Shown here: piece after piece, positions 15,158 through 27,574 of the stretch | Layout: the number at the start of each line of letters is the position of its first letter | Numbering within the stretch: position 1 is the stretch's first letter | Assembly: GCA_000310025.1 (NCBI GenBank) | Contig: FN649727.1 | Coordinates: 4,198,183-4,228,326 of the forward strand | Source of the DNA: Ectocarpus siliculosus | Lineage: Eukaryota; Sar; Phaeophyceae; Ectocarpales; Ectocarpaceae | DNA length: 30,144 nucleotides | Direction: 5' to 3' | Translations under genes and position numbers: made by a program | Notes under the pieces: model-generated | Told to the model about the DNA's origin: nothing | The model's input: the letters and a program-made list of their open reading frames with translations, nothing else | Database searches by the model: none

Positions 15158-18100
15158 ATGGCGGATAATGCTGCTGCTGCTGGTACCGGAGAGCAGAAGG
15201 TTTCCAAGAACGCTCTGAAAAAGCAGGTGTGAACCACGGGCCCCTGCATCTCTGCATGCTGCTGCTGTCGGGCTCGTTCATTTTTGGGTTGCAGCGCTCT
15301 CCGTTGGCAGGCAGCTCCGTGTATACGTGTACGCCATAACCCGATACGCATGATGGTGGACCCTCTCAGCTGTTCCCTGCAAACCTTAACCGCAGTCCCA
15401 TTGATCTCGTCGATAGCTAATCGATAGAGAGCAGGATTGAAATGAAACCTCGTGCACAAACAAACGTAGACCACCTCGTTCTCGGCTGAGTTTTTTAAAA
15501 ATTTTGCGCGAGCGAGAAATGACGAGAGCCACACAGCCTGTTGCTCAGGTGCTCCTGGCGCCGACAGGCAACACCACGAGTGTGCAACCGGCCAGAGCTT
15601 CACGTGTGCTCTTGGGGGCCTTGAGAAAGCTCCTTATTTTTCTTTTTTTGCTAATAGCAGCTGTGTGCTGCTCCATCTCCGGAATGCCTAAAAGTGTGCG
15701 CCTCATATGCATACAAATATGTGTAGCAGTAGAGCAGTGCACGCGACCAGGGCAGGCAACAACGGGCCAGTCTTGCCGGCTGCCGGCTGTGAGGCAAGAG
15801 AGTTGTGGGAAGGTGTAAAGGATTGTGCACACGTTTCACAAAGATACGCTCCTGGCCCTGTCAGAACCAGCAACAGTGGCGTGGCAATCAACAAAGGGCA
15901 GTCTGTCTAGTAGGAGTGTTTTGCGGCTGCGTTGGGGCTGTGGAGCGGTTGAAAAACGCTTTTACGGGTCATTCCAGCAACAACACGTTCGACGAAGTCA
16001 CCATCGTGCTGTCTGTCACGTTGGCTTATGGTCGCCACGCCCGCCCCCCTACGTGCTGCAACGGTGAGGGCATCAGATGGCCAGCGAACAGAAATGCAAC
16101 TAGATGAACGAGTCGCGCGGAGATATCGCAGGAGATCCTTATATATTGGTCCCAGAATAACCAGGAGTGAGCATGGTCATCACCGACAGGCAAACTACTA
16201 CGGTACATACCACAGCAGTGGTATTTCCTCCCTCAGACACAACCACACCCCTCACCCTCAACCCTGTGTACCCACCGCTCGCCCCATCCCCACATCCACG
16301 TCGATGAAACACGCACCGTACCTTAACAGCTGAAGGCAGAAGCAGCCGCGAAGAAGAAGGCAGAGAAGGAAGCAGCCAAGGCCAGCGCCGCCGCCGCCGC
16401 GCCTCCCGCCTCCGCGGCGGCGTCCGCTAGGTCCAAGGCCAAGGCCGGCGCTGCCGACGAGGAGGAGCTGGACCCGACACAGTACTTCGCTAACCGCTCC
16501 AGGTGCGCGTGCGACAATAGCCCGATGTAGATGCGTATTGCTGTCTGTGGGAAGTTTTCAGCTTTGCAAGGTTAAGGTTTTAGTCGCAACATCGCAGCGG
16601 GTACTCAGTCGGGCGCCGGGGTCCTCTGTATGGTACAGCAGCAGTGTTGCTGTCCGGTTCTCTCAGGACTAGCATCTGCAGCGTTGCTCATGATACTGGT
16701 GCTGTTTGTGTTTTCGACGGGTGTGTGGAATGTTTTCGTTGCTGTTTTGTTGTTGTTTTCGGTGGGTTGTGGTGGTGAGAGTGGTGAGGGTCTGGTTGGT
16801 TCCTTCCACGTTGTCTGTCTGGCGGTCCCTGTAGTCCTCTCCTGCTCTGCCCGCAGCCTGGAGGATTCTCGCCCTTCATGCGCTCAACTCGGTGCCTTCG
16901 TGCGCTCAATTGTTTCCATGACGAACCACACACCAAACCTACCGTCCTAGTTGTCACAATCCTCCCCTCTCGTCGTGTGTTGAATATCCCGCTTACCCAC
17001 CCCTCGGGGCCAGTTTATTTGAGTGTACCTTTTTAGGGTAAGTTAACCTGTGACCACGGGAATCGACCGCGTCGAGTGTTGGATCAGTACGGACATACGA
17101 AGTTACTGGATAGAGAGAGATCGGAACGGTTTTTAATGTGAAGACAACGACCACAACAACCCACAGGGCAATCGCCCAGCTGGAGGAGGAAGGAACCAAC
17201 CCATACCCCCACAAGTTCCACGTTACGATCAGCATCCCGGAGTTCGTGGCAAAGTTCAAGGACGTGGAAGTCGGAGAGAAGCAGGTGGGTGGTGCGGTGT
17301 TGTAAGGTGGGCCGATGGCGAGGTAGACGGCTGGGCATGAGCGCAAGAGCCTGAGCAAACGGCCACGCGCTGCCATTTCTGCCTCGCGCTGCCATTTTTG
17401 TTTTTTCGTTTTTTTTTCATGGGATTTTCGTTCGTCGTTTTTGGTCTTATCTGTGTGGACAACTTTGTGGTGCCGCGTAATTTAACGCATATGTGGAGTG
17501 GGATGCTGGGCAGGGGCGTGTGCCACTTCGACGTTCTTCTTGTTTTTTGTAACCATGGCAACCAATGGGGTCTGGCCTGTTCCGTTTTCGCCACCGGGTG
17601 GCTCACACAAAACACCGAATCCTCACCTGGCCGCGTTTTTGTGGGCCTGCCTTTTGCCCCCCACCCCCCCCCCTCCCCTTCCCTTCCCGCCCAGACGAGA
17701 ACGGTTGTCACCCCCTTTCCAGTGTCCCATCTGTTGTGCCCACCTTCATTTCTCGCTCCCTCCCGCATTCATCCTGCCTTCGGCGTGCTTCTTCTCGACA
17801 TCTCGCCGTTGTCCCTAACTCGCGCTTGGCTGGTGCCATGTGGTGTGGTGTCAGGAGGATGTCGTGTCCCTCGCGGGCAGGATCGTCAAGAAGCGCGAGC
17901 AGGGCAAGCTGCTCTTCTATGGCATGAAGGCGGACGGTGCAAGCGTGCAGGTGATGGCATCTCTGAGCGACTACGAGGGAGGGGAGGAGGCGTTCTGGAA
18001 GGTGAGTTTTGGGTTGTTTTTTGAAGGTGGGAATAGGGGGAGGGGAGGGGCTATGCCGAGAGGAAGCGTGGGTCTGTTTGTGAACAGAGGAGGGAAAGTG

Positions 18101-27574: not shown

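Follow-up and report, generated by a model that had tools for sequence, protein, structure and literature searches.

In the genome of Ectocarpus siliculosus, a single gene carries, in one open frame, a lysyl-tRNA synthetase (LysRS) followed by a nucleotide exchange factor of the eEF1B type. The gene lies in the window, the 30,144-nucleotide stretch of DNA that was analyzed (C2:4198183-4228326 of an assembly of 189 Mb in 492 contigs). We consider it reasonably probable that this one gene encodes a bifunctional protein: a cytosolic LysRS bearing at its C terminus a third eEF1B paralogue, which would dock on eEF1B-gamma and exchange nucleotide on eEF1A.

We reconstructed the gene from its DNA using homology together with splice sites, and 16 exons join into a single frame of 860 residues plus a stop codon (2583 nt). 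All 15 introns have GT-AG boundaries and the exon phases are consistent, with 13 introns in phase 0 and two in phase 2. The encoded protein has the order LysRS, Ala-rich linker, diverged eEF1B N-terminal domain, acidic stretch, and EF1_GNE exchange domain (Table 1). The transition from synthetase to exchange factor occurs within exon 13, a 219-nt exon that encodes the last synthetase residues (...FPAMKPEE) and, from position 24912, the eEF1B residues DLAS..., without an in-frame stop codon between them; the LysRS part thus has no stop codon of its own in this exon. The initial annotation had proposed this 16-exon frame, the two-part coding content of exon 13, and a complete class II synthetase, and all three are reproduced in our reconstruction.

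Table 1. Features of the LysRS-eEF1B gene (window positions 15158-27574)
Feature	Position	Strand	Content
Exon 1	15158..15226	+	Start codon, LysRS N-terminal extension
Exon 2	16330..16502	+	Lys/Ala-rich LysRS N-terminal extension; residues 11-69 within 6chd_A alignment
Exon 3	17167..17284	+	LysRS; 6chd_A alignment
Exon 4	17855..18001	+	LysRS anticodon-binding OB fold; PF01336 residues 124-203
Exon 5	18620..18778	+	LysRS; 6chd_A alignment
Exon 6	20430..20492	+	Start of LysRS catalytic domain; PF00152 residues 220-567
Exon 7	20816..20875	+	LysRS catalytic domain; Pfam and 6chd_A
Exon 8	21288..21518	+	LysRS catalytic domain; Pfam and 6chd_A
Exon 9	22139..22354	+	LysRS catalytic domain; Pfam and 6chd_A
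Exon 10	22875..22961	+	LysRS catalytic domain; Pfam and 6chd_A
Exon 11	23466..23606	+	LysRS catalytic domain; Pfam and 6chd_A
Exon 12	23970..24170	+	LysRS catalytic domain, with a stretch of 15 residues; Pfam and 6chd_A
Exon 13, fusion exon	24729..24947	+	LysRS end (to 24776), Ala-rich linker, start of eEF1B N-terminal domain
Linker, residues 572-614 (43 residues, Ala-rich)	24777..24905	+	Contains Met584 at 24813
eEF1B N-terminal domain (gamma-binding type, GST-C-like), residues 615-685, intron 13 inside	24906..25359	+	5dqs_D; GST_C_6 below cut-off
Exon 14	25189..25622	+	Remainder of N-terminal domain, Gly/Ala/Lys linker, acidic stretch, KKVDR segment
Exon 15	26095..26272	+	First part of EF1_GNE exchange domain
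Exon 16	27488..27574	+	EF1_GNE end, ...TTMNRL, stop

In coding score, the 41 linker codons tested surpass all but 0.04% of 123-mers drawn from the introns of the gene, as measured with a codon table trained on the remainder of this gene alone. Frames 0 and 2 score alike over these 41 codons, so the linker frame is not singled out by coding potential.

Repeats are present in the introns. A long (TTG)n microsatellite occupies window positions 24230-24370 within the intron (intron 12) that precedes the fusion exon. Another repeat (18812-20059 and 26384-27074) has two tandem copies, 615 apart, in intron 5 and a further copy in intron 15. Copies 1 and 2 are 98% identical over 300 nt and copies 2 and 3 are 95% identical over 264 nt, with other ungapped comparisons at 60-91%, and we suspect that this sequence is probably a mobile or satellite-like element. 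A Pfam scan of ten of 320 open frames gave no match at E<=0.01 in any of the ten.

Residues 11-571 align full length with the LysRS chain 6chd_A in a search of PDB sequences (E 3.1e-227). The OB-fold (PF01336) and class II core (PF00152) models of Pfam both score over their cut-offs, and TIGR00499 reaches 622.3 bits against a cut-off of 427.6. With the LysRS half as query, 6chd_A scores 758.8 bits and 9yjn_A 559.2 bits, compared to 431.6 bits for 3a74_A. We take 6chd to be the human enzyme and 3a74 to be a bacterial LysRS. On these species assignments, the scores place the synthetase half as a class II LysRS that is closer to the eukaryotic cytosolic type than to the bacterial type. Charging of tRNA-Lys is its predicted activity.

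The tail was initially described as a complete eEF1B subunit, which is borne out for the exchange domain but not for the N-terminal domain. EF1_GNE (PF00736, residues 776-860) is complete and C-terminal, covering positions 2-88 of the 88-position model with 91 bits (cut-off 20.8, E 5.2e-26). The exchange half also matches five PDB eEF1B sequences with E values from 4e-19 to 1e-25. The EF-1-beta models of NCBIfam, which are prokaryote-trained, score below their own cut-offs on the fused tail. Preceding the exchange domain, an acidic segment of 11 residues aligns with EF-1-delta 2n51, and a Gly/Ala/Lys stretch lies between this segment and the N-terminal eEF1B domain. Exchange of GDP for GTP on eEF1A is the predicted activity of the tail.

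In yeast eEF1B-alpha, Lys205 inserts into the Mg site and its mutation is lethal, according to excerpts of PMC5806593. The fusion has Arg859, its penultimate residue, aligned to this Lys of yeast 1f60_B, and it has an extra Glu in the sequence WGEAHKL. We considered whether these features signify decay of the fused exchange domain and rejected this explanation, as both are common to the standalone paralogues of the same genome. All three eEF1B-type genes found (the fusion and the two genes on contigs C13 and C474) have Arg at the yeast Lys205 position, carry the extra Glu, and end in ...TTMNR(L). Arg is therefore no distinguishing mark of the fused copy, since the two standalone paralogues have it too. 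Even so, this Arg counts against full exchange activity of the tail, as does the sequence WEAGAD in the fusion where both paralogues have WDTETD.

The N-terminal eEF1B domain is detected less readily. GST_C_6 of Pfam reaches 14.6 bits, which is under its cut-off of 28. With residues 601-685 as query, the one match at E<=10 among 177635 PDB sequences is the eEF1B chain 5dqs_D (E 5.8e-4, 23.4 bits); a longer query around the domain finds this chain at E 0.043 only, and with the whole tail as query it does not reach E 0.001. The molecule name of 5dqs_D is Elongation factor 1-beta, for which the IUBMB name is eEF1B-alpha, and 5DQS pairs the N-terminal domain of eEF1B-alpha with that of eEF1B-gamma in one complex (PMC7160314). 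The match spans the junction of exons 13 and 14, and therefore supports the splice at that site. Judging from these alignments, the match is specific but weak, and the domain is diverged. Its score of 23.4 bits compares with 46.3 bits for the C13 paralogue against the same chain, and gamma binding may have been lost through this divergence.

A search of the genome for EF1_GNE gave eight matches at E<=1, and all eight are in three genes: the fusion, C13 and C474. Searching with the tail protein yielded 15 matches from 31 candidates, of which 12 are in the same three genes and the other three are weak (E 0.02-0.9). The C13 gene (L032) encodes a standalone eEF1B of 232 residues that includes the N-terminal domain (5dqs_D, E 4.3e-11). 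The C474 gene (L033) encodes a standalone eEF1B of at least 181 residues, with no N-terminal domain in the alignment. In the C474 gene, the assembly turns to N right after the last codons (L033, position 2507 downwards, minus-strand reading), and the last residue and stop codon are unseen. No LysRS matches were present on contigs C13 and C474, nor in the stretches L032-L035 fetched around both genes.

Compared over 86 residues, the exchange domain of the fusion shares 88% identity with C13 and 86% with C474. By the NG86 method, the fusion and C13 differ in this domain by a dN of 0.071 and a dS of 0.824 (ratio about 0.09; bootstrap 95% range 0.03-0.18 from 300 of 300 replicates), and YN00 gives a dN of 0.059 and a dS of 1.043 for the same pair. 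The NG86 values are 0.115 and 1.496 for the fusion and C474, and 0.062 and 1.172 for C13 and C474. On the branch leading to the fusion, dN/dS is approximately 0.11, with a wide range of 0.03-0.78 (264 of 300 bootstraps were usable, two of them at or above 1). Selection seems to have preserved the exchange domain after the copies diverged, although part of this constraint could predate the fusion.

The standalone genes differ from the fusion in that they have no synthetase, a start codon of their own, and an additional intron within the exchange domain. Two intron positions in the exchange region are common to the fusion and both paralogues. Therefore, the tail arose by DNA duplication, and an origin by retrocopy was rejected. 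Nucleotide identity to C13 is 89% in exon 16 compared to 81% in exon 15. Recent gene conversion with C13 is disfavored by the overall dS of 0.82, but a small, local conversion may have taken place around exon 16.

When the LysRS part was used to search the genome, 19 matches from 22 candidates fell in two genes, with 12 in the fusion and seven at C33:216.6-221.7 kb. The PF00152 family has 16 matches in the genome, including others on C12, C16, C19 and elsewhere on C33. With the LysRS query, no match at E<=0.01 arose at these other loci, which presumably encode aspartyl and asparaginyl enzymes. The C33 LysRS, whose sequence was pieced by hand from its matches in a fetched stretch holding 649 N, scores 372.6 bits with 3a74_A compared to 322.6 bits with the best chain of the 4dpg/4ycw group. 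As judged by these scores, and by the species taken above for the PDB chains, this enzyme is bacterial-like, and it is probably organellar. By the same measure, no eukaryotic-type LysRS other than the fusion was found in the 189-Mb assembly. Given that two standalone eEF1B genes exist and that the sole eukaryotic-type LysRS found resides in the fusion, dependence on the fused gene lies with the synthetase.

An eEF1B-gamma gene was found at C4 (one match from four candidates), and eEF1A genes were found at C11 with scores above the family cut-off. The tail therefore has its expected partners. It had been suggested in the initial annotation that the fusion could recruit the synthetase to the eEF1B complex. 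This suggestion is supported by a domain of the gamma-binding type (a weak match), an eEF1B-gamma gene and eEF1A genes, and the association itself is predicted. Two of the eEF1A genes are arranged head to head within about 7.2 kb (L050-L053, C11:2316968-2324212), forming an inverted pair with identical match scores.

In the bifunctional reading that we favor, the N-terminal domain of the tail would dock LysRS on eEF1B-gamma, in the manner of a standalone eEF1B subunit, and the fused EF1_GNE domain would swap GDP for GTP on eEF1A. Because LysRS is a dimer (PMC4394549), each dimer would hold two exchange domains beside newly made Lys-tRNA. The eEF1A protein would be recharged at its place of need, next to Lys-tRNA. 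The single transcript and protein, the docking, the exchange activity and the hand-over of Lys-tRNA are all steps that we infer. It is a more tentative and somewhat doubtful proposal that the only cytosolic LysRS is built permanently into the eEF1B machine, with Lys-tRNA passed directly to eEF1A that has been recharged on the same chain. This would constitute a covalent channel for one amino acid, and perhaps the charging state of lysine would set local recycling of eEF1A.

Alternatively, the fusion protein might be made and its tail might serve solely to anchor LysRS to the eEF1B complex, with exchange left to the standalone paralogues. Since two standalone exchange genes remain, the tail may not be needed for bulk exchange, which counts against the bifunctional reading. 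In the exchange domain, moreover, the fusion branch has a dN of 0.062 compared to 0.009 for C13, though this value is near the 0.053 of C474, and the WDTETD motif present in both paralogues is altered to WEAGAD in the fusion. However, a pure anchor would have no need of an exchange domain, and yet EF1_GNE extends intact through its final residues, with few replacement changes relative to silent ones. In addition, the part expected to do the anchoring, the N-terminal domain, is the more diverged one. We regard a tail that acts exclusively as an anchor as unlikely.

It is quite unlikely, in our judgment, that the locus chiefly makes two products, with LysRS alone (for example, through retention of intron 13), eEF1B from Met584 by way of an internal promoter, and the full fusion as a minor species. 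In the alignment, Met584 (MAP...) falls opposite Met1 (MAPK...) in the standalone C13 protein and its codon lies in the context GGGATGG, as if an old start codon had survived the join, and this placement may leave room for a separate eEF1B product. Reading from the DNA, retention of intron 13 would add seven codons and then a stop. There is precedent in the human LysRS and GluProRS genes, each of which yields more than one product (PMC4394549, in the portion seen). Against such an arrangement, exon 13 has no LysRS stop codon, and LysRS alone would need either an unspliced intron 13 or an unseen exon.

An artefact of annotation or assembly, in which neighboring genes were misjoined or the contig is chimeric, is highly improbable even though the gene was read from one assembly, because the join sits in frame within one 219-nt exon on a contig extending past 4.2 Mb, the window contains no N, and the eEF1B domain match runs over the next splice junction; the assembly error that the initial annotation had allowed for is therefore disfavored.

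Returning to the bifunctional reading, we found no LysRS-eEF1B fusion in the literature searched, among the matches listed, including the accessible parts of PMC6723311, PMC4394549, PMC3938643, PMC7160314, PMC5806593, PMC8319005, PMC2705460 and PMC3680381. None of these listed literature matches describes the joining of a synthetase with an exchange factor for eEF1A, although such a protein may exist as an uncommented database annotation. With the exchange domain as query, IMG/VR returned 11 stretches, one of which passed tblastn (L001, 35% over 43 residues). Judged from the translations, the L001 match falls within a 209-residue frame that is unrelated and lies next to a phage-like protein. 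Part of LysRS as query gave none from four IMG/VR stretches, and the exchange domain gave none from 134 stretches of GTDB genomes.

The fusion would have several implications. It points to one molecule that holds together two consecutive steps of protein synthesis, and it would bring an exchange factor into the range of domains known on synthetases. With an essential synthetase and an exchange factor in one gene, the idea of Lys-tRNA transfer becomes testable with one purified protein. Direct hand-over of aminoacyl-tRNA from synthetases to eEF1A is a working model (PMC4394549) for which the arguments have so far come chiefly from loose complexes.

Earlier examples include synthetases that carry appended domains, complexes in which a synthetase binds eEF1B non-covalently, and one apparent eEF1B-kinase fusion. 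For example, the LysRS of PDB entry 4up7 (777 residues), which is presumably the Entamoeba enzyme with an EMAPII-like tail, has an extra domain on the synthetase, as does the fusion. GST-like domains are appended to GluRS, ValRS, CysRS and MetRS (PMC8319005), and these likewise represent an extra domain joined to a synthetase. Unlike the fusion tail, they serve protein-protein contacts, and none is named as a nucleotide exchange factor in the excerpts of that source. From the eEF1B side, Thecamonas trahens has an apparent eEF1B-kinase fusion (partial text of PMC3938643, a survey in which only the top eEF1B hit per species was kept). There too, an eEF1B exchange gene is joined to another protein, but the partner is a kinase.

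Two known assemblies bring a synthetase and the eEF1A machinery together through separate chains. First, ValRS of vertebrates joins eEF1A and eEF1B in one complex, where a GST-like domain that could be restricted to Deuterostomia makes the contact (PMC4394549). As in the fusion, a synthetase is placed beside the eEF1A exchange factor. In contrast, the ValRS association is non-covalent, involves the valine enzyme, and has a synthetase without an exchange domain, whereas the join in the fusion is, at the level of the gene, covalent. Second, the archaeal LeuRS-LysRS-ProRS complex has EF1A as an associate, which places LysRS and EF1A in the same assembly. There, the chains are separate, LeuRS is both the scaffold and the contact for EF1A, and no exchange factor is named in the passages of PMC4394549 that describe it. 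Together, the archaeal and ValRS complexes indicate that closeness between a synthetase and the eEF1A machinery is used elsewhere, and in the gene described here this closeness is covalent.
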